Shown here in pieces: positions 83-60,698 of a stretch of DNA of 64,000 nucleotides (position 1 is the stretch's first letter; each line of letters begins with the position of its first letter). The translations under genes and the position numbers were made by a program. The notes under the pieces are model-generated. The model did no database searches. It was not told the origin of the DNA and saw only the letters and a list, made by a program, of their open reading frames with translations. Source of the DNA: an uncultured Bacilli bacterium. Its GTDB lineage: Bacteria > Bacillota_I > Bacilli_A > RF39 > UBA660. The stretch is taken from contig CANQQV010000008.1 of assembly GCA_947626095.1 (NCBI GenBank), positions 1-64,000 on the forward strand. The letters are read 5' to 3'.

Positions 83-1429
83 TTATTTTAAAACTAATTC
101 TTTGAAACGATCGCCTTTTTCTTGATAATTCTTAAAATATTCATAGCTAGCAGCAGCGGGACTTAATATACAGCTTTTACCCTTTTTAGTAACTTTTTTG
201 GCAGTTTGAACAGCTTCATCAATTGTTTCAGTGTAATAAACGTTTTTATTCTTTAGTTTTTGGCCGATGTCATAACCAGTTTTAGGCATACAAATAAAAT
301 TATTAACTTGGCTATGTTGTAAGAAGGTAATAAACTCAGTATAAGAAATACCCCTATCCATCCCACCAAAGATTAAGGTATCAACGTCTGTTAAAGCTTT
401 TAGAGCTTCTTCAGTAGCTTCAGGAATAGTAGCTAATGTATCAACATAATATTTAACACCTTTAATAGTTTTAATGTATTCGATACGATATGGTAATGAC
501 TTAAAAGAAGCAATAGCAGATAAGATATCTTCATTGGCAATATTAAGTAATTTACCAACGACAAAGGCAACCATAATATTTTCAAGATTATGGTCACCAA
601 GAATATTTCTTTCAAGATTTCTCGTAAAGACTAATTCATCGTGGTAATAGACTTTACCATCAATCATTTTAATTGTAGATTTATGGTCTTTACCAGTTAT
701 ATCAACGGAAATTAGGTGACCTTTTAACTTAGTAGTTTGAACTTTCTTATTAAGATTAGGATTTGATGAACAATAGATACTATAGTCATTTGCTTCTTGG
801 TTAGTAAACATACGCATTTTAATGTCATGATAATGTTTTACAGATAATGCGTGATCAAGATGGTCTTGAAATAAATTTAAAATAATACCTATTTTAGGTG
901 AGATATCTAAGTATTCTAATTGATGAGAAGACATCTCTAGAACATAGTAATCAACATTTTCATTTAAGTCTAAATCAAAGATTGGTTTACCAATATTACC
1001 AGCTAATAAAACTTTATATTTCTTTTTTAAGATTTCGTATATTAAAGATGATGTTGTACTTTTTCCTTTTGTACCAGTTACCCCAATAACTTTATCTTTA
1101 GCAACACTAAGAAGAAGTTCCATTTGGGAACTAATCTTATGATAGAATTTAGTTGTATCTATTTTATTTAAAGATATACCTGGACTTTTAATAATAATGT
1201 CATATTGTTCTAAATTATCTAAATAGTTTACACCACTAATAAAGTTAACATGATTATCGTTAATAAACATCTCTTCATTAGAAGATTTAATATCGGCTTG
1301 GTCGATGATAGTTATTTGTTCGTCTTTTAAATAGTTACGAATAAATTTGTAGGTAGATTTACCTTCGCGACCAAAACCTAAAATAGCTATTTTTTGGTTT
1401 TTTAATTTTTGAATTATTTTATCGATCAT
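83..1429 (-). CDS. murD: UDP-N-acetylmuramoyl-L-alanine:glutamate ligase (MurD, possibly MurD2)
   Basis: Cytoplasmic ATP-dependent Mur ligase that adds glutamate to UDP-MurNAc-L-Ala in peptidoglycan precursor synthesis. The 448-aa length is normal. An N-terminal Rossmann-like domain (ILGFGREGKS, residues 16-25) precedes the Mur-ligase P-loop GTKGKST (119-125) and the central and C-terminal ligase domains, ending in the usual SPAAASYEYF-type segment. It starts inside the 3' end of the upstream murL gene (11-nt overlap), so the two are translationally coupled. Because its partner is a MurL-type epimerase, this MurD may add L-Glu (MurD2 type) instead of D-Glu. That is an inference; I see no residue that proves substrate chirality. 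Confidence 0.93.
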   Translation of the reverse strand: MIDKIIQKLKNQKIAILGFGREGKSTYKFIRNYLKDEQITIIDQADIKSSNEEMFINDNHVNFISGVNYLDNLEQYDIIIKSPGISLNKIDTTKFYHKISSQMELLLSVAKDKVIGVTGTKGKSTTSSLIYEILKKKYKVLLAGNIGKPIFDLDLNENVDYYVLEMSSHQLEYLDISPKIGIILNLFQDHLDHALSVKHYHDIKMRMFTNQEANDYSIYCSSNPNLNKKVQTTKLKGHLISVDITGKDHKSTIKMIDGKVYYHDELVFTRNLERNILGDHNLENIMVAFVVGKLLNIANEDILSAIASFKSLPYRIEYIKTIKGVKYYVDTLATIPEATEEALKALTDVDTLIFGGMDRGISYTEFITFLQHSQVNNFICMPKTGYDIGQKLKNKNVYYTETIDEAVQTAKKVTKKGKSCILSPAAASYEYFKNYQEKGDRFKELVLK

Positions 1430-2747
1430 TTATAGCATCCCTAACTAATTTTATATATTTTTCATCTAAATTATGTTCATTATTCCAATAATTTTCTAAA
1501 GCTAAATTACTTAAATCATGATAATAGTTTTCATAGTAGTATTTAAGAAGAATTGGTAAATTACTTTTATCTAGTTTATTAATTGTTTGATATATAGCAT
1601 AATTGATTTCTTCAAATGTCCCAACACAATCAAATGGTTTAACATTTTCATAACCTAGTAATTCTTTAAATAAAGGTAATAGTTTTTGATCATTAAATAA
1701 GTCTTGGCCAAAGATTGTTACTAGTTTTTTAGGATACAAGAAAGGACTTAGTAAAGAAAAGACAAATAAACATTTAGCACATTTACCACACCAACACCAT
1801 GGTTCACTTTTACTTCCAACATTACAGCTTTTAAATATTTGGTGATATTGAGGATATTTAGAAAATAACATACCAATTTGATATTCAGTTAATGGTCTTA
1901 GAAGAGAAAAATAATTAATTATATTACCTAAATATTCTTTTTGATAGTTGTTAAAATCATTTTCAAATTCAAAAGATTTAGAATATTGGTGATTAACTTT
2001 AGTCCCTTTTACATTAGCTTCATTAGCACTAGATTCATTAGATAAAACAATATTTTTTTTATTATTCAAATAAGCTGTTAAATAAGAAACAAAAGCAACC
2101 ATGGCGGAAAATGGTGTATGACCATTTAGATAACCTTTACTATTTAAATCTAATAAATTATGATCTATAGTTCTTTTTATTTTAATAATATCATGATCTT
2201 CGTAACCAGCAGCATAGGCACAATCAAGCATGACTTTTTTAGGATTGATGATGAATGGTGTTCCTTTAATTAAACTTAGGGTAACACATGAGTCTTTACC
2301 GCCGCCAATAGCGATCATATCCCCTACTCCATTATAATCAATACTTGGCTTAGAACTAGTTGAAGGGCAAATAAATTGAAGAAAATTAGAATAAGATGGA
2401 TGAAGATGATTAACATAGAAAAATTCACCTAAGCCATAATAAAATATTTTTTTAAAGAATGCTTGTTGTTGAGAGTCTAATGAGCCACACTCAATAATAA
2501 AATTGGGGGCACAAGTACTTTTCCAATAACTAATAGCTTCAATCATTCCAATATTAAAAGCTAAAGTATGAAGATAATCTTCATTAAGATTATTATTACT
2601 AAATGGTATTTCTAAACTTGGCTTAAATTCACATAAATTATCAATTGAAAAAGTATAAACTATTTTAATAGTATTATCTTGGAATGTAAGATCATATTTT
2701 TGATATCTAAATGTATTATATTTTTTTATTTCATCTTGATTTAACAT
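1419..2747 (-). CDS. murL: UDP-MurNAc-L-Ala-L-Glu epimerase (MurL)
   Basis: MurL uses ATP to epimerise the terminal L-Glu of UDP-MurNAc-L-Ala-L-Glu to D-Glu (family known from Xanthomonas, paired with MurD2). The 442 aa carry a PP-loop-like GGGKDS at 148-153, a NESSANEANV block at 237-246, NHQYSKSFEFE at 252-262, and a cysteine cluster C318/C320/C323/C326. I recall these blocks as typical of MurL proteins. The gene lies directly upstream of murD and overlaps it by 11 nt, which strongly supports the pairing. RBS GAAAGAGGG precedes the ATG. The identification comes from motif memory and context, not from a search. Confidence 0.8.
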   Translation of the reverse strand: MLNQDEIKKYNTFRYQKYDLTFQDNTIKIVYTFSIDNLCEFKPSLEIPFSNNNLNEDYLHTLAFNIGMIEAISYWKSTCAPNFIIECGSLDSQQQAFFKKIFYYGLGEFFYVNHLHPSYSNFLQFICPSTSSKPSIDYNGVGDMIAIGGGKDSCVTLSLIKGTPFIINPKKVMLDCAYAAGYEDHDIIKIKRTIDHNLLDLNSKGYLNGHTPFSAMVAFVSYLTAYLNNKKNIVLSNESSANEANVKGTKVNHQYSKSFEFENDFNNYQKEYLGNIINYFSLLRPLTEYQIGMLFSKYPQYHQIFKSCNVGSKSEPWCWCGKCAKCLFVFSLLSPFLYPKKLVTIFGQDLFNDQKLLPLFKELLGYENVKPFDCVGTFEEINYAIYQTINKLDKSNLPILLKYYYENYYHDLSNLALENYWNNEHNLDEKYIKLVRDAINDR

Positions 2748-2815
2748 TTTAATCCCTCTTTCAAATTATATCACTTTATATTATATTTATAAATTCTCTT
2801 TACTTTTACTAGACT

Positions 2816-2839
2816 TAAAAAACCGATTATTATCGGTTT
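2816..2839 (-). terminator. Rho-independent terminator after the 572-aa membrane protein
   Basis: On the minus strand a hairpin (AAACCGAT / ATCGGTTT) is followed by T residues and begins at the stop codon of the 2839-4557 gene. Confidence 0.75.
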
Positions 2840-4557
2840 TATTTAGAAGATATAGAATTGAAAATGCTTTGATAGAAATTTTCACAGATATGGTTATCAT
2901 CTTCATATTCCATTTTATATTCAAATAACAATATCTTATCGTTTTTCTTAGTAACATGGAAATATATTTGATTGTCGTTTTTACTAGAAGTAAATGTTTG
3001 CCATGTAATATTGTTATTGGTTATAGTATTAATACCTTCAGTCTCACTACGAGTATAATAGTAAGATATTGATTTAATTAAATCATTTTCATCTTTGTAG
3101 CCTTTGACAGCATTAAATGATAAAGTACATTTATTGTTACTATATTCTACTTTTGGTTTCTCTTCTTTTGGCTTTTCTTCTTGATTTGAAGAATCGTTTT
3201 CGGTTTTTTTGTCATCAGATTGATTTTGATCTTTTTCGGGTTCATCTTCTTCTACTGGTAATGGAACTCTGTATATATAAGTAAATGTTTGACCTTCTTT
3301 AGTAAATTCTTTAGGAATGGTAATATTAAAGTTATCTTCAATATTGTATTCCTCGTAAGTTAGGTCACCATTATAACCAGTAACTCCTTTACTATCTTCG
3401 TTGATAACTGGTTCATTATTTTCCGGCAACAAATTAAGTAGGTCTTTATAATCAAGTGAAACACCAATGATAAAGACTGCTAGACCATAAACTATTGTAG
3501 CTAAAAGAGCTATTAAGAAATTGGTACCACCTTTTTTCTTAGCCATAACTGATAATTCATATTGATTTTTTTTGATATTGTGCTTATGAAGAATTTTAAC
3601 TCTGGTCTTAACAATACCAATATATAAATGATTGACAATTAAAGCAAGAATTAAACGATAGATAAATAGACCAATAAAGGAAAATGGTGTTGGGACAATA
3701 ATTAAAATAGCAAGTTCAATAACTAAAGCAAGTAAACCGAAAACATATAATTTACGGTAAATAAAATATATACCACCAAATAATAAAGCATAGAAAGAAA
3801 ATGGAGCCATAGTAATTTTAGTAAAAGCTGGACCAACATATTCTTTACTTACTTTTACTTCATCAATCTCAGGATATTGTTCATTAAAATTATTATATAT
3901 ACTTGGAGCACTGTTAATTGCTGGAGCTGGTGGTTCTACCGCTTTATTGCTTGCTGGTTCGTAGTTACGTGGTTGAATAAAACGATTATTTTCCACAATT
4001 TCTTTTGGCGCATCTTCACCGACTATCGTATTTACTCCTAGCCCACCCATACTAAGGGGTTGAGAATTCATCCAACTTTGATAATTGTCATTAGGATTTG
4101 GTGGGGTTGGATTGGGATTATTTTGATTCACATTAGGGTTTACTGGCCGAGGATTAATATTATTTTGATTGTAATTAAATTGTTGAGGATTTGGTTGTGG
4201 TGGCATTGGGGCTTGAGGAACAGGAGCCGCTGGAGTTTGATTATAGGTGGTTCCATTAACACCATCCATTAAAGTTTCAATTTTATCGTCAAATAAATCC
4301 AAAACTTCTGGTGATTGAGAAATGCTTGGACTATTATTTAATTGATTATTGTTATTATTGTTATTGCCAACACCCCAAGTTGTTCTACTAATGAATTGAC
4401 TATTAGCAGTATTAGAAGTTTCGGAATTAACTTCATTTATATTATTATTAAATAAATCAGCAGGAAAAAACTTATTAGTTACAGAACGTGTAGGAATTGA
4501 GTTATTATTAGGTACTTGATTATTAAATTGAGAATTAAAATTATCTCCATTGTTCAT
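2839..4557 (-). CDS. Asn/Pro/Gln-rich multi-pass membrane protein with extracellular C-terminal domain
   Basis: Function unknown. The first ~240 residues are low-complexity Asn/Pro/Gln-rich and probably disordered and cytoplasmic. Several hydrophobic segments (about 250-317) and a further TM helix (about 343-370) follow. Then comes a Glu/Asp/Lys-rich linker (about 425-475, EEKPKEEKPK type) and a C-terminal domain of about 100 residues with two cysteines (CTLSF and HICENF). That tail resembles the C-terminal domains of the zinc-ribbon proteins at 8111-9220 and 9225-10196 (Cys-x-[LI]-S opening, a TW/PWQ-type strand, a final Cys-x-x-F/Y helix). I infer one family of envelope proteins. RBS GAGGTG precedes the ATG. 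Confidence 0.85.
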   Translation of the reverse strand: MNNGDNFNSQFNNQVPNNNSIPTRSVTNKFFPADLFNNNINEVNSETSNTANSQFISRTTWGVGNNNNNNNQLNNSPSISQSPEVLDLFDDKIETLMDGVNGTTYNQTPAAPVPQAPMPPQPNPQQFNYNQNNINPRPVNPNVNQNNPNPTPPNPNDNYQSWMNSQPLSMGGLGVNTIVGEDAPKEIVENNRFIQPRNYEPASNKAVEPPAPAINSAPSIYNNFNEQYPEIDEVKVSKEYVGPAFTKITMAPFSFYALLFGGIYFIYRKLYVFGLLALVIELAILIIVPTPFSFIGLFIYRLILALIVNHLYIGIVKTRVKILHKHNIKKNQYELSVMAKKKGGTNFLIALLATIVYGLAVFIIGVSLDYKDLLNLLPENNEPVINEDSKGVTGYNGDLTYEEYNIEDNFNITIPKEFTKEGQTFTYIYRVPLPVEEDEPEKDQNQSDDKKTENDSSNQEEKPKEEKPKVEYSNNKCTLSFNAVKGYKDENDLIKSISYYYTRSETEGINTITNNNITWQTFTSSKNDNQIYFHVTKKNDKILLFEYKMEYEDDNHICENFYQSIFNSISSK

Positions 4558-5264: not shown

Positions 5265-6365
5265 TTAAGAATTATTTTGAGATGCTCTAAGACGTATTGC
5301 TTCGATATCATTATTGCTAAAGTAAGCTGAGTATTCTAATTGCATTTGATTCCATATTCCATTAAAATTACTAACAATTCTAACAGCTCCTTCTGGATCA
5401 ATAAGACCATGTTCTAAATAATAATCAATTTTTTTATTTAAGAAATCAGGTAAGATATTCATAATACGTTTTATTTCTTCACTAGGAATATCTTGTTTTC
5501 TTTTACAAGACATAAACAATCTATCTAAATATTCACAAAATATTCTGTAAGCTCCTTGTCCCATGAATTTATCAAATTTAGATTCAATGTGTAATGGATC
5601 AAATAAGATACCATATAAGAAGTCGTTGGCTCTATATCTTTCGCCATTATTCATTTCTGTAACAAGAGAAAATATATCTCCACCATTATTAATAACATTT
5701 TGATAATTTACATTGCCATTGTTAGAAAATGCGGCAATTGCTAGTCTAGTTATTGAAGTAAACATTGAATAACCAGTTGTAGCATCATTCCACTCATCAT
5801 ACTTCGTAGTTAAAATTTCATCAACTGTTGGGCTATAAGGATTATCAAAAGTGTTTATAGCCATAGTCGTAATTATATCCATCATGGTTTCATTAAACAT
5901 CTTACCATAATGATGTTGACCGACTAATTCACCGGTTGTTGGATCACTTTCTTTTATCAATCCCATATGGTTTTCACATTTAATACCGTCTTTTATAATA
6001 CCATTGGGACGACTAGAAAAGATTAATGGTAAAATATCAGCAAAGGCATGGCAAAATTCATGAGCCCCTTCGTGCTTAATAAAGTCATATTGATCACTTG
6101 TTGCGCCAATATAACCTAACATTTCAATAATTAGTTTATTGTCACTGGTATCCAAACGACAAACTCCTGGAGTTGCATGGCTTAAATACTCAGTTGTTGT
6201 TCCTTGTGGAAATATATTGACTTGTTTTACCATAATTTCTAATAATTCTTTAAATTTAGCAATTTGTTCTTGATTGTTTATTCCAAAAACTAAAGCAGAT
6301 AGATAATTAACTGAGTTTTCAATTAATTCTTTATCTTTGTTTGATGCACAATAAAATTTAGTCAC
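5265..6365 (-). CDS. Putative zincin-like protein with HExxH motif, unknown family
   Basis: I do not recognise this 366-aa family. It has no signal peptide or TM helix, so it is probably cytoplasmic. The clearest feature is HEFCH at residues 102-106 (HExxH zincin signature), preceded by H98-E99. A conserved-looking GMLIKESDPTTGELVG-type stretch and a C-terminal helical part follow. This suggests a metallopeptidase-like fold, but the third metal ligand cannot be assigned by eye. Translation starts at GTG with RBS GAGGGG eight bases upstream. The gene stands alone between terminators and intergenic gaps. Confidence 0.75.
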   Translation of the reverse strand: MTKFYCASNKDKELIENSVNYLSALVFGINNQEQIAKFKELLEIMVKQVNIFPQGTTTEYLSHATPGVCRLDTSDNKLIIEMLGYIGATSDQYDFIKHEGAHEFCHAFADILPLIFSSRPNGIIKDGIKCENHMGLIKESDPTTGELVGQHHYGKMFNETMMDIITTMAINTFDNPYSPTVDEILTTKYDEWNDATTGYSMFTSITRLAIAAFSNNGNVNYQNVINNGGDIFSLVTEMNNGERYRANDFLYGILFDPLHIESKFDKFMGQGAYRIFCEYLDRLFMSCKRKQDIPSEEIKRIMNILPDFLNKKIDYYLEHGLIDPEGAVRIVSNFNGIWNQMQLEYSAYFSNNDIEAIRLRASQNNS

Positions 6366-7295: not shown

Positions 7296-8048
7296 TTAAA
7301 AAAGAGCAATATTAGCAAAAAAGACAATTAGTAAGATAAATACAACATCGACAAAAATAAAATTACCTTTTTTATCAAATTCTTTACCACATAATTTGCT
7401 AACAAAAATAAAGATAGCATAAAATAAATTAAACAGAACAAACCCAACTAAGGAAATCGTTAAACAAATAATTCCGGCATTTAAGCTAGTAATGTTATTA
7501 AAAGCTTGGAGAGTAAAACTAATACCACTTACCATACCAATAGTTATAGCGATAAAGATAGCAACTATTGAAACAATATCAATCATATTACGATCATAGC
7601 GATTTTTTAAATCTTTAACGTTATTATTTAGTTTAACAAAGTCTTCATTACTACGATCAAAAACATCTTTTAATAATCTTATTTTAAAACCATCACTAAT
7701 CATATTCTTAGTACTTATATTAGCTTTTTCAATACGGTCCATTGTATCATAATAATTATACATACTAACTAAGTCTTCACGATGAACTTCCATTTCAATT
7801 GATTTAAGCATATTATCATAAATATTATCTTCTAGGAGTATAGATTCACAGTAATAGCATATTTTCTTTAAGTTAGCTGTGAACATACCATTATCGTTTT
7901 TATAATATTCATAAATAAATCTTTCACGAGCATCATTATCTTTTAAAAAATAAAGTAAGTCAAAAGCGACAATAAAACAGACAACATTAGTGCCATTTCC
8001 CCCATTTTCTAGTCTTTTTATTTTTTCTAACATATCTTCTAGATTCAT
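7296..8048 (-). CDS. Hypothetical membrane protein, soluble N-domain plus C-terminal TM helices
   Basis: 250-aa protein of unknown family. Residues 1 to about 150 are soluble, helical and charged. The C-terminal third has three or four hydrophobic segments (about 155-182, 192-215, 230-250). RBS AAGGAAGTGA precedes the ATG. It lies just downstream of the zinc-ribbon gene at 8111, separated by a weak hairpin, and may belong to the same functional cluster. Confidence 0.75.
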   Translation of the reverse strand: MNLEDMLEKIKRLENGGNGTNVVCFIVAFDLLYFLKDNDARERFIYEYYKNDNGMFTANLKKICYYCESILLEDNIYDNMLKSIEMEVHREDLVSMYNYYDTMDRIEKANISTKNMISDGFKIRLLKDVFDRSNEDFVKLNNNVKDLKNRYDRNMIDIVSIVAIFIAITIGMVSGISFTLQAFNNITSLNAGIICLTISLVGFVLFNLFYAIFIFVSKLCGKEFDKKGNFIFVDVVFILLIVFFANIALF

Positions 8049-14808: not shown

Positions 14809-14825
14809 AAGACCATTTTGGTCTT
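14809..14825 (-). terminator. Terminator after the GH25 lysozyme
   Basis: AAGACCA / TGGTCTT hairpin with a T-run on the minus strand. Confidence 0.75.
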
Positions 14826-16281
14826 AACTACTTGAATGATATATATTATCGTTTAAAATATCATAAAATTCAAGGTCTTCGATATAGTATTCTTTTTCAT
14901 CAATTAATACTTTAACATATTCATCATTAGTACCAACAATGGTTATTTCATCATCAATATTTAGCATTTTATACTCATTTTCCCATAAGAAGTCATATGG
15001 TTTATAAAGTACTTGAACTGGTTTAGTAACTTTAACGGTTAAATTAACCTCAGTAAATGGGACTTCAGCTAGTTGCATAGCAAAACAATTTGGATCGTTT
15101 ATATAATAAGTATTATTTTCATATAATATTTTAACCCACTCTTTACCAAGACCAATTACTTTTATTTTAGTATCTTTGTTTAAAGTACCAGCTTTATTAG
15201 GAATGGTTGTATAGGGGCTAATTCTTAGATAAGAATCTTTAGTTAGAATAGTATCCATATCGATTGCTTTAAATTCGATTTCTTCAAGATCACCTGGTTT
15301 ATAAACGCCATTAACAATACTTCTTTTAGTAGCATCATTAGTGACACTAAAATATGAAACGTTCATATCAACTCGACCTTTTATACCTGGTACACTACCA
15401 CTACTGGTATATTGCCACATATAATAACGGCCTTTATAAGTAGCTTCATCGTTGTATTGAGCAAGCCAGATACGATAATTATTAAATTTAGCAGTGTCAA
15501 AGTATTGATTAAATGCACGAGCATAGGAATAAATCATAGGTGTATAACCTTTACTTTTAACATAATCACTAAAAGCAATGGCATTATTAGTTAATGTGCT
15601 ATAACTAACACCTTTTAAGCGATATTTATCAAAAATTTCAGTATCAATAGCTACAGGGTATGAAATATCATAATCTTTAATCAAATTAATTACCCATTTG
15701 GCTTCTTCAATAGCTTCAGTTTTATTTTTAGCCATAGAAAAGAAGTAAACACCAACATTTATATTATTAGCAATAGCACCTTTAATATTATTTAAAAAGT
15801 ATGAATCCAAAGTTATTTTACCAGAATCCATTCCTCTAAAGCCACATCTAATCATAGCAAAGTTAATACCTGAGGCTTTTACTTTTTTCCAATCGATTGT
15901 ACCTTGCCAAGTTGAAACATCAATACCTAAACTAGTTTCATTGGTTTCATATTTAGCAACGGCTTTTTTGGCAGTTGTCTTTTTAGCTGTTCCTTTTACT
16001 TGATTATTCTTTTTTATTTCTAAAGAAGGATCTTCTTTCATAACTTCTGGTTCAGTTAAAATGATATTTTTGGCTTCTGATGATAAATCGACATAAAAAG
16101 ATGGTCCAGGAGCAGAAGACAAAAAGTCACTTATTTTTCGATCAACTGTATTATTGAATTTTTTATTTTCTTCTGAATCTTTTAGAGCATAGCTACGATT
16201 ATTTATTGAAGCAAAAGAAAGTATTAACATTATTAATACTAAACAGATAATAATTGATTTTAAAACATTCTTTTGTTTCAT
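14824..16281 (-). CDS. Secreted GH25 muramidase (lysozyme) with C-terminal SH3-like domains
   Basis: Hydrolyses the MurNAc-GlcNAc bond of peptidoglycan outside the cell. An N-terminal signal/anchor (about 7-27) leads to a Lys/Ala/Thr linker (about 90-112). The GH25 barrel (about 115-310) opens with GIDVSTWQG (D121) and carries the acidic AIDTE motif (D213, E215) and the typical IWLAQYN and MWQYTSSG strands. Two SH3-like segments of about 70 residues fill the C-terminus. RBS AGGAG precedes the ATG. It may act in wall remodelling; its neighbour is a SpoIVB-like protease. Confidence 0.9.
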   Translation of the reverse strand: MKQKNVLKSIIICLVLIMLILSFASINNRSYALKDSEENKKFNNTVDRKISDFLSSAPGPSFYVDLSSEAKNIILTEPEVMKEDPSLEIKKNNQVKGTAKKTTAKKAVAKYETNETSLGIDVSTWQGTIDWKKVKASGINFAMIRCGFRGMDSGKITLDSYFLNNIKGAIANNINVGVYFFSMAKNKTEAIEEAKWVINLIKDYDISYPVAIDTEIFDKYRLKGVSYSTLTNNAIAFSDYVKSKGYTPMIYSYARAFNQYFDTAKFNNYRIWLAQYNDEATYKGRYYMWQYTSSGSVPGIKGRVDMNVSYFSVTNDATKRSIVNGVYKPGDLEEIEFKAIDMDTILTKDSYLRISPYTTIPNKAGTLNKDTKIKVIGLGKEWVKILYENNTYYINDPNCFAMQLAEVPFTEVNLTVKVTKPVQVLYKPYDFLWENEYKMLNIDDEITIVGTNDEYVKVLIDEKEYYIEDLEFYDILNDNIYHSSS

Positions 16282-58418: not shown

Positions 58419-60698
58419 TTATTGTTCTTCTTCAGGTTGTGGTGAAGATACTACTCCACTTGAATCAATTAAGTGTTTGTCATAATCAGTTCCATTGTAT
58501 ATAGAAATGATATAATCACTGCCAGTTTGTGATACTTTAAAAGCAGGATTAGCAGTATTACAATAAGGATAGTCTTTGACTTTGATGCCAGTATTATTTA
58601 TTTTACTACCATAATAATTGTAGATATAAAGTTCTTTATTATTATCGATACCAGCATAGTAAGTGTCATATAATTCAACATAAGCAAAGTTATCACTACT
58701 AACTGGCGTACCATTGTAATCATAGATATGATAGCTATCACCAACTTTTACTTTAAAGTAATTTAGATTCTCACTATATCCTCTAATTTTACTATCAAAG
58801 CCAATTGATTCTTTTGAATCATCAAAATGAATTTTCCATTTATTAGTTGTATCTAAAGTTAAAATATAGTCACCGATTTTTTCCATTTTATTATAGTTAA
58901 ATTGATATTTAGGAATTACTTTATCTTCATCAATAGTTATCATACCGTATTTACCTTTTTTACCTAAGGCGATGACATCAAGAGTACCTTCATATAATGT
59001 CACTTTATTATCGTTGTTAGGAGTATTTGAATTAATTGTTGTATAACCATTATCAACAAGAGATTTATTAGCTTTTAAATCATATAAAATAATATTATTT
59101 AAGCCATCAGCAATAAAGACATATCTTTTATTAACAATTGGAACACGGCTATTACGGTTCATATCTTCAGGTTTAACCATATCGTTATCTTCATAAACAG
59201 TATCTGTTGCAATAAAACACATTGTATAGTCATCATCTTCAGATGAGACATCGTTATTATTTGAACATTTATATGATCCTAATAGTTGTTCTTTAGTTGA
59301 ATCTTCGTAAAAATATAACATACCATCAAAATAATTAACATATTCATATTTAGCATTAACTAATGACTCAGCAACGTTTACTGTCTTAGTTTCAGGGTTA
59401 GTAATATCATTATCATAAACTTGAATTTGAATAGTAATTTTATCAGGAATATTTATTTCAAAGCTAGCTTTAGTTTCGGCTAGTTCACCATCATCATTAT
59501 AAATAAATGTTTTAACATAGTTTTTATTTTTTAATTTAATATTACCTTCATTTATTTTATTTTTGTCTTTATCTTTAATATATAGATTATTGTCTTTAAC
59601 TAAGAAAATATAATTATCTTTAATTGTAATGTAGTCATACTCTTTATCTAGTAAAGTAGCTTTATAATCATATATTGTATAAACACCAGAGACTTTGGCA
59701 ACAACAAAATTGTCATTGTAATTGGTTATTTCATAACTAGAACTAAAATTACCACTTAAGCTTTTATTATTCTTATCAATAATTTTATAACCTTTATTAT
59801 ATTTAGCTAATAAATTATTTTCACCATTTATCATACCTAAATAGTCGTATTGTTCTTCAATTAAGCTTGTGATACCATCTTCAACTTTAATTAAACCATA
59901 TTTTTTATCAGTAGCAACAATAGCATAGTTATCATCATAAGCTTTGACAGATTGATATTCTTTTAAAACTTTATTGTCTTTGATTGAATATAATTTTATT
60001 TTAGCATTTGCTTCTTCTTTGTTATCAACAACATATGCATATGCATCGTCAACAATTGGATAACGTTGATCTTTTGGTTGACCCTTCTCATCTAATAGAG
60101 TTGGAATATCAAAGGTATCATCAGTCTTGTTAAAGCCTACATAACATAAAGAAGCAGATTTATTTTCACATTCATAAGTTCCTACTTCATTACCATCAGC
60201 ACCTAAAAAATGAAGTGTACCATCTTTATAATAAAAATTATCAGCTAAAACTGGTGGTTCTTCTACTGATGGGGTTTGATTGTCTGGATTTTCATCATTA
60301 CGATTTTTATTTAAAAAGACAACTAAGAAAACGATAAGAGCAGCGATTAAAACGACAACTAAAACGGCAATAGTAATAAAGAGAATCTTCTTTTTCTTAT
60401 CTAAAGATTGCCATTTATCTTTTATCTTGGTAAAGATACTAACCTTTTCAGGGTCTTCTTCAGATTCTTCAGAATCTTCATCTTCATTTTCTTCTTCAAT
60501 TATTGCTTCAGCCATAGCAATGTTCTTTTCCGCTAAGGCTTCTTCGGCTTCCTCTTCTTTTTCTTTATTTAAACTTTCTTCTAAAATATCTTTATTCTTT
60601 TCAACTCGACTTAAGCTTTCTTCTATTTCCTCTTCATTCTCTTCGAGATCTTTCAGTGTAGTAATGGGTTTTGTTTTTTCTAAATCTTCATCCATCAT
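58419..60698 (-). CDS. Large membrane-anchored WG-repeat-like protein
   Basis: 759 aa: an acidic, coiled cytoplasmic N-terminus (about 1-95, Glu-rich), a TM helix (about 106-130), and a large extracellular domain with several repeats such as KYGLIKVEDGITSLIEEQYDYL and KYGMITIDEDKVIPKYQFNY, each opening with an aromatic-Gly pair. It is a third paralogue of the 17437-18891 and 18948-20603 proteins, here with a longer cytoplasmic part. Function unknown. The start ATG-ATG follows AGAAAGG. Confidence 0.8.
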   Translation of the reverse strand: MMDEDLEKTKPITTLKDLEENEEEIEESLSRVEKNKDILEESLNKEKEEEAEEALAEKNIAMAEAIIEEENEDEDSEESEEDPEKVSIFTKIKDKWQSLDKKKKILFITIAVLVVVLIAALIVFLVVFLNKNRNDENPDNQTPSVEEPPVLADNFYYKDGTLHFLGADGNEVGTYECENKSASLCYVGFNKTDDTFDIPTLLDEKGQPKDQRYPIVDDAYAYVVDNKEEANAKIKLYSIKDNKVLKEYQSVKAYDDNYAIVATDKKYGLIKVEDGITSLIEEQYDYLGMINGENNLLAKYNKGYKIIDKNNKSLSGNFSSSYEITNYNDNFVVAKVSGVYTIYDYKATLLDKEYDYITIKDNYIFLVKDNNLYIKDKDKNKINEGNIKLKNKNYVKTFIYNDDGELAETKASFEINIPDKITIQIQVYDNDITNPETKTVNVAESLVNAKYEYVNYFDGMLYFYEDSTKEQLLGSYKCSNNNDVSSEDDDYTMCFIATDTVYEDNDMVKPEDMNRNSRVPIVNKRYVFIADGLNNIILYDLKANKSLVDNGYTTINSNTPNNDNKVTLYEGTLDVIALGKKGKYGMITIDEDKVIPKYQFNYNKMEKIGDYILTLDTTNKWKIHFDDSKESIGFDSKIRGYSENLNYFKVKVGDSYHIYDYNGTPVSSDNFAYVELYDTYYAGIDNNKELYIYNYYGSKINNTGIKVKDYPYCNTANPAFKVSQTGSDYIISIYNGTDYDKHLIDSSGVVSSPQPEEEQ

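Follow-up and report, generated by a model that had tools for sequence, protein, structure and literature searches.

A MurL-type epimerase gene overlapping a MurD2-like ligase gene in an uncultured Bacilli bacterium, very probably the MurD2-MurL module outside its published range

Introduction

How does a bacterium in which no recognisable glutamate racemase is found furnish its peptidoglycan with D-glutamate? The question is raised by two overlapping genes near the beginning of contig C8 of a metagenome-assembled genome (MAG) of an uncultured Bacilli bacterium (1.62 Mb, 34 contigs, completeness 91.28%, contamination 7.9%). The 64,000-base stretch analysed here, bases 1-64000 of that contig, is referred to as the window. 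One gene encodes a 442-aa MurL-type epimerase and the other a 448-aa ligase of the MurD family; together they very probably form the MurD2-MurL module of peptidoglycan synthesis, a pathway reportedly described for Xanthomonas oryzae and relatives by Feng et al. in 2017. Support for this reading comes from the genes, homology, linkage, residue pattern and predicted fold, and from the lack of a match to MurI, D-amino-acid transaminase (Dat) or DapF in this genome.

By this route MurD2 would join L-glutamate to UDP-N-acetylmuramoyl-L-alanine, and the attached L-glutamate would then be flipped to the D form by MurL, which may activate the carboxylate using ATP via an adenylate; MurE would continue as usual. 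The X. oryzae system is reported to ligate L-glutamate, to use ATP, to release AMP and to epimerise in one direction only, and two actinobacterial pairs function in vitro, while the adenylate is also there only a proposal of the Xanthomonas workers (PMC8788868, PMC5808125). The pathway is described as limited to relatively few genera (PMC8788868); its recorded range takes in Gammaproteobacteria, Actinobacteria and Alphaproteobacteria, and more distant orthologs are noted from a fungus, cyanobacteria and an amoeba (PMC5808125). The window lineage lies outside this range, and our verdict is that the pair represents the known pathway beyond it; the new parts are the wider range, an incomplete replacement of the standard ligase and a fold-based mechanism.

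Results

The 442-aa protein is a distant MurL homologue with a predicted QueC/QatC-like fold

The initial annotation had recognised an overlapping MurL-type and MurD pair from sequence motifs. Both open reading frames (ORFs) were found on the minus strand with an 11-nt overlap, the motifs GGGKDS, NESSANEANV, NHQYSKSFEFE and the Cys cluster were located in the 442-aa ORF, and profile searches returned a match for each protein. For the 442-aa protein the sole NCBIfam model matched is NF041275 (MurL_Xanthmoales; E 1.4e-70, 238 bits), with residues 7-391 aligned to profile positions 4-396 of 447. All 46 members of our MurL alignment (A4) likewise match NF041275 and no other family at E 1e-5. Across 26 MurL rows that include X. 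sacchari, 39 positions are invariant. Membership of the broad MurL family is thus indicated by near full-length homology, shared motifs, a MurD neighbour and no match to another D-glutamate enzyme.

An AlphaFold2 model of the protein (predicted local distance difference test score, pLDDT, 93.4) resembles QatC and QueC, which fits an ATP-dependent activation of a carboxylate. These are PP-loop (ATP pyrophosphate loop) enzymes, QatC belonging to the qatABCD anti-phage defence system; the predicted fold, the PP-loop and a four-Cys site are common to them and MurL, and the aligned range of QatC on MurL begins at residue 9, ahead of the core. The four-Cys cluster is probably a zinc site as in QueC and QatC, for which the literature assigns this role. 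MurL differs in substrate and role, in its PP-loop (GGGKDS vs SGGxDS) and in the spacing of the Cys residues (C(x)11CxxCxxC vs C(x)8CxxCxxC in QueC). A MurL profile (A3) matches TtuA (5mko) over profile positions 144-180 (E 3.5e-4). The KPFDCVG segment is a candidate catalytic region, judged from its invariant residues.

Pfam QueC is touched by 2 of the 46 MurLs (best E 0.051) and Pfam DUF6395 by 43 (best E 5.7e-5), with the window MurL under the cut-off at 0.25. E. coli QueC aligned to the MurL profile through the Cys motif and the following part alone (probability 6.6%, E 0.0055). A Pfam scan of the window MurL gave no match at E 0.001, a Protein Data Bank search with the single sequence returned only unconvincing matches (6 weak chains, the best at E 0.098), and three MurLs submitted to PADLOC were without match.

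MurL is nearly always linked to a MurD

It was found that a MurD ORF lies downstream of MurL in 20/20 fetched same-family loci, so the pairing is not a matter of chance; in one locus (L006) MurD follows after an insert of ~1.1 kb and is cut by the locus end. A wider set, drawing on 80 named loci out of at least 579, gave a MurD downstream or fused in 88 of 91 loci, i.e. 87 same-strand downstream ORFs and one fusion. The ORFs overlap in 73 of these 87 pairs, nine of them by exactly 11 nt, with starts at same-family and wider loci picked mechanically, which inflates the overlaps; 3/87 MurDs are truncated or split. In the fusion, MurL and MurD2 form one 897-aa ORF (L146 5959-8652, Bacteroidia MAG RUG14460). 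The remaining 3/91 loci are without MurD, one of which (L153) reaches the locus end. Gene order in X. sacchari is the same as in the window, murL first and MurD2 next with overlapping ends.

Among the matches listed, the closest named relative is an 'uncultured Bacilli bacterium' MAG (L077), with 72% identity for MurL and 75% for MurD. A DUF1003 gene and ORFs of similar size stand upstream of the pair in the same order in both genomes, and a scan of 8 neighbours of the L077 pair showed no recognisable wall genes.

Three records filed as plasmid or phage were also encountered. On a mobilizable Pseudonocardia plasmid (L076, NZ_CP010991.1), a MurL homologue is encoded near integrase genes, with no MurD annotated within 4 kb. 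The X. sacchari murL-murD pair (L074, NZ_CP010410.1) is located on a 508-kb 'plasmid' record that also carries an aspartate kinase/diaminopimelate decarboxylase gene and is perhaps a chromosomal piece. The single match in a phage collection (L075, MT836755.1, 'Bacteriophage sp.') contains a MurL-MurD2 pair with elongation-factor-like and NUDIX-like ORFs by eye; it resembles a bacterial contig and looks misfiled, and a phage origin of the pair was dismissed.

MurL and glutamate racemase do not occur together in the genomes compared

The proposed bypass of glutamate racemase agrees with the genome itself, which has no match to PF01177 (MurI superfamily), PF01063 (Dat) or PF01678 (DapF); controls for these searches were positive in 10, 13 and 9 of 14 genomes, respectively. 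At 91.28% completeness a single gene absence could be a gap, and relatives were therefore examined in a family sample (117 genomes) and a phylum sample (392 genomes). In the family, MurL is present in 21 genomes and MurI scores over the cut-off in 40, never together. Restricted to genomes with a MurD over the cut-off, MurI occurs in 0/21 MurL-positive and 33/65 MurL-negative genomes (Fisher p 6e-6, a descriptive value uncorrected for relatedness), with weak partial matches to the MurI model in two of the 21 (G015, G024). Dat exceeds the cut-off in 2/117 genomes, neither with MurL.

The phylum sample is a poor background, many of its genomes being without both MurL and MurI. Strong MurL matches were seen in 14 of its genomes (3 in the same family, 11 in family f14), none among the 92 that match MurI; a fifteenth case (G195) consists of weak fragments with stops. 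In f14, MurI matches occur in 24 other genomes, counted by hand, and one f14 MurD is near-identical to a MurD from an 'Erysipelotrichales bacterium'. A set of fifty named MurL genomes (L077 and L108-L156 of the 80 loci, the 30 between left out), which by record title include Bacilli, Clostridia, Lachnospiraceae, Oscillospiraceae, Bacteroidales and others, gave MurI over the cut-off in 0/50 and weak partial matches in 8. Same-family and named loci overlap, with identical MurD rows for L004/L079, L005/L104 and L013/L102, so the MurL-genome sets of 21, 11 and 50 may share members.

A separate observation concerns G026, a genome with a canonical MurD, in which matches to the MurI model (G026:C1:13278-13975) fall in three pieces with internal stop codons; either the racemase gene is broken or the assembly is at fault.

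The linked ligase groups with Xanthomonas MurD2

The 448-aa protein matches TIGR01087 (murD) with 315 bits against a cut-off of 211.95, a model that does not separate MurD2 from MurD, and is ~28% identical to X. sacchari MurD. It belongs to the same ligase family as the MurD of the canonical route, which relies on MurI or Dat vs none found here, and the MurL-linked ligases form a clade of their own. In a quick tree of 107 rows, 28 canonical MurDs are set apart from 79 MurL-linked MurDs, with X. sacchari MurD2 among the latter (Shimodaira-Hasegawa-like approximate likelihood ratio test, SH-aLRT, 98). This tree took 48 of 81 further MurL-linked loci (L075 and 47/80 named ones) and, from 30 fetched same-family canonical MurDs, the 15 with even numbers, and left out L006, L109, L125, L128 and L146 as truncated, split or fused; a further set used 45 of the same 81 loci. 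A second quick tree with a MurC outgroup (64 rows, 61 of the 107 plus three MurCs) again united the MurL-linked MurDs and X. sacchari in one clade (SH-aLRT 96). The clade is placed among the canonical MurDs there, a placing supported at only 87-89 in a tree where long branches meet, X. sacchari being one of them.

Two positions (E. coli numbering, Met not counted) differ between the groups. Position 319 is Ile in 73 and Leu in 6 of the 79 MurL-linked MurDs, and Lys in 24/28 canonical MurDs (the others being Glu, Glu, Val and Ile); the window protein has Leu and thus departs from the canonical Lys319. Position 113 is Lys in 79/79 MurL-linked MurDs, and Asn in 26 and Asp in 2 of the 28 canonical ones. 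A K319T exchange makes E. coli MurD accept L-glutamate (PMC8788868). From residues and linkage, the window MurD would be expected to use L-glutamate. The Xanthomonas system likewise combines Ile/Leu at position 319 and conserved MurL motifs with the lack of MurI or Dat.

Evidence against the assignment and alternative explanations

Several observations, collected in this section, weigh against assigning the pair to the MurD2-MurL module. At 238 bits, the window MurL misses the 700-bit cut-off of NF041275, passed by X. sacchari MurL with 836 bits, and the two proteins share 28% identity; the window MurL is not a member of this narrow Xanthomonadales equivalog.

Not all residues of the ligase follow the MurD2 pattern. 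Position 182 is Glu in 61 and Asp in 18 of the 79 MurL-linked MurDs, and the window protein has Asp vs Glu in Xanthomonas. Both E197D and R358K alter X. oryzae MurD2 (equivalent to positions 182 and 348), E197D changing the stereospecificity (PMC8788868). Of the MurD2 pair Glu182 and Arg348, the window MurD has only Arg348, a residue found in 79/79 MurL-linked MurDs, in 17/28 canonical ones and in S. mutans MurD (PMC8788868); Arg348 was hence dropped as a sign of L-glutamate use. In view of Asp182, the window ligase is termed MurD2-like. The occurrence of Asp182 and Arg348 in canonical MurDs, the TIGR01087 score and the loci that carry MurL without MurD (the Pseudonocardia plasmid and the three wider loci) are all consistent with a MurD that is an ordinary D-glutamate ligase, next to a MurL homologue that epimerises another peptide or serves surface polymer synthesis. 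We regard this as improbable, as it is opposed by the MurL-MurI exclusion, the near-constant linkage with one fusion, the Ile/Leu319 and Lys113 common to X. sacchari MurD2, and the lack of any D-glutamate source found.

The distribution of D-glutamate enzymes is also less tidy than the exclusion alone suggests. A protein of the Asp/Glu racemase superfamily (PF01177) is present in 3/21 family MurL genomes, matching TIGR00067 weakly in two (G015, G024) and below report level in the third (G003). DapF serves as a substitute racemase in Chlamydia; it occurs in 3/117 family genomes, two of them with MurL (G012 and G090, i.e. 2/21), and with this rarity and its absence from the present genome it was set aside as the source here. 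The single same-genus genome (G033, 85% complete) has no MurL, MurI or MurD over the cut-off. Neither MurI nor Dat is found in 27 of the 65 family genomes that have MurD but not MurL, some of the 27 being incomplete (G042 71%, G093 68%), so a missing MurI does not prove that MurL is used, and a D-glutamate source of another kind, or uptake, probably exists in the family. These genomes without a source include G001, G005, G036, G097 and G105, and a further one, G084, has a PF01177 protein.

Unlike Xanthomonas, the window genome additionally keeps a canonical MurD, with Lys319, directly before a MurC-like ORF on contig C10 (G000:C10:59088-60389; L047; L169 5074-6405). The L077 genome also holds both the pair and a canonical MurD, and the canonical proteins of the two genomes are 83.7% identical, vs a lower 74.8% for the pair's MurD. 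The canonical MurD must have a use, though no D-glutamate source was found for it. Two MurDs over the cut-off are found in 6 of the 21 family MurL genomes (this one and five more) and in 14/50 named ones, with Lys319 in 10/12 second MurDs fetched. It is possible, if rather doubtful, that both systems run in parallel, the canonical MurD drawing on D-glutamate from scavenging or from an unrecognised enzyme, with the pair acting as back-up or under other conditions; the conserved gene beside MurC and the 27 family genomes without MurL or a known source would fit. No D-glutamate enzyme was found in this genome, however, and in the 15 family MurL genomes without another MurD over the cut-off the pair should be the main route.

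The 7.9% contamination and the position of the pair at a contig end could be taken to mean that the pair or the second MurD stems from a contaminant contig. This is very improbable, for the L077 genome has the pair, the DUF1003 gene and the like-sized upstream ORFs together with a canonical MurD, and the G+C contents are close, at 0.281 for the window and 0.305 for the C10 stretch.

Replacement of the canonical MurD is incomplete

Retaining the assignment to the MurD2-MurL module, the suggestion in the initial annotation that a standard step of wall synthesis is replaced in this lineage stands in part. The step looks replaced in 15/21 family MurL genomes, where the pair's MurD is the only one over the cut-off; in the window genome it does not, the canonical MurD being kept. 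Replacement thus looks complete in some lineages.

A probable remnant of replacement is seen in eight MurL genomes (L174-L181), where an ORF of 182 aa (188 in L180) corresponds to no more than the C-terminal 40% of canonical MurD and lies where E. coli has murD, between mraY and ftsW. The conserved length suggests this stub still does something. Seven of these genomes are titled Bacteroidota, Bacteroidales or Bacteroidia and one 'uncultured bacterium'; they were chosen for partial MurD matches, of which there are at least 10, two with stop codons. In two MurL genomes (L167, L168) a third type of MurD, carrying Lys at 348 and either Ile or Val at 319, branches beside the MurD2 clade.

Distribution and implications

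The pair was found in uncultured Bacilli, Erysipelotrichales, Lachnospiraceae, Oscillospiraceae, Bacteroidales and a MAG labelled Saccharibacteria. Named strains with the pair include Pseudobutyrivibrio xylanivorans DSM 14809 and Ruminococcus flavefaciens XPD3002, and neither species has a MurI over the cut-off. A literature search, with most subscription papers outside its reach, found no report of the pair in Bacillota or Bacteroidota; 'Murl' in PMC7215955 is a spelling of MurI and was discarded as a report of MurL.

Taken together, we lean slightly towards a combined reading, in which MurL would be a PP-loop enzyme of the QueC/QatC type that epimerises via carboxylate adenylation, and the pair would have taken the place of glutamate racemase, and in many cases of the original MurD as well, across Bacillota and Bacteroidota, leaving the old murD only as the 182-188 aa stub at eight loci. 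By fold kinship, the QatC reaction may in turn be carboxylate activation on a peptide. The predicted fold hence offers a testable mechanism for the ATP-dependent epimerase. Routine annotation would hide the pathway, since TIGR01087 calls these ligases D-glutamate-adding and the window MurL escapes Pfam, and drugs or metabolic models that assume a universal glutamate racemase would fail for such bacteria.

Features of the locus

Coordinates are collected in Table 1. The murD gene is complete, though it ends 82 bp from the start of the contig, and murL is preceded by a 91-nt gap.

Table 1 Features of the MurL-MurD2-like locus in the window
Feature	Position	Strand	Basis
MurD2-like ligase, 448 aa	83..1429	-	TIGR01087, 315 bits; in one clade with X. 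sacchari MurD2 and the MurL-linked MurDs
MurD GGMDRG, Arg at E. coli position 348 (Arg358 of MurD2)	350..367	-	alignment
MurD DTLATIP, Leu at E. coli position 319	422..442	-	alignment
MurD QDHLD, with Asp where X. oryzae MurD2 has Glu197 (E. coli position 182)	854..868	-	alignment
MurD P-loop GTKGKST, Lys at E. coli position 113	1055..1075	-	alignment
Overlap of murL end and murD start, 11 nt	1419..1429	-	sequence
MurL-type epimerase, 442 aa	1419..2747	-	NF041275 match, AlphaFold2 model
MurL KPFDCVG, with invariant K370, F372, C374, G376	1620..1640	-	alignment
MurL four-Cys cluster, C308, C320, C323, C326	1770..1829	-	alignment
MurL NHQYSKSFEFE motif	1962..1994	-	N252, H253, Q254, S256, K257, E262 invariant in 26 rows
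MurL NESSANEANV motif	2010..2039	-	N237, E238, S240 invariant in all 26 rows, X. sacchari among them
MurL PP-loop GGGKDS, residues 148-153	2289..2306	-	alignment, TtuA profile match
AGAGGG, likely ribosome-binding site of murL	2754..2759	-	inferred from sequence
TATAAT, possible -10 element in the gap before murL	2765..2770	-	sequence
Second TATAAT in the same gap	2780-2785	-	sequence

Elsewhere in the window, long ORFs at 2839-4557, 5265-6365, 7296-8048 and 58419-60698 gave no Pfam match at E 0.001, and 14824-16281 encodes a glycosyl hydrolase family 25 protein.
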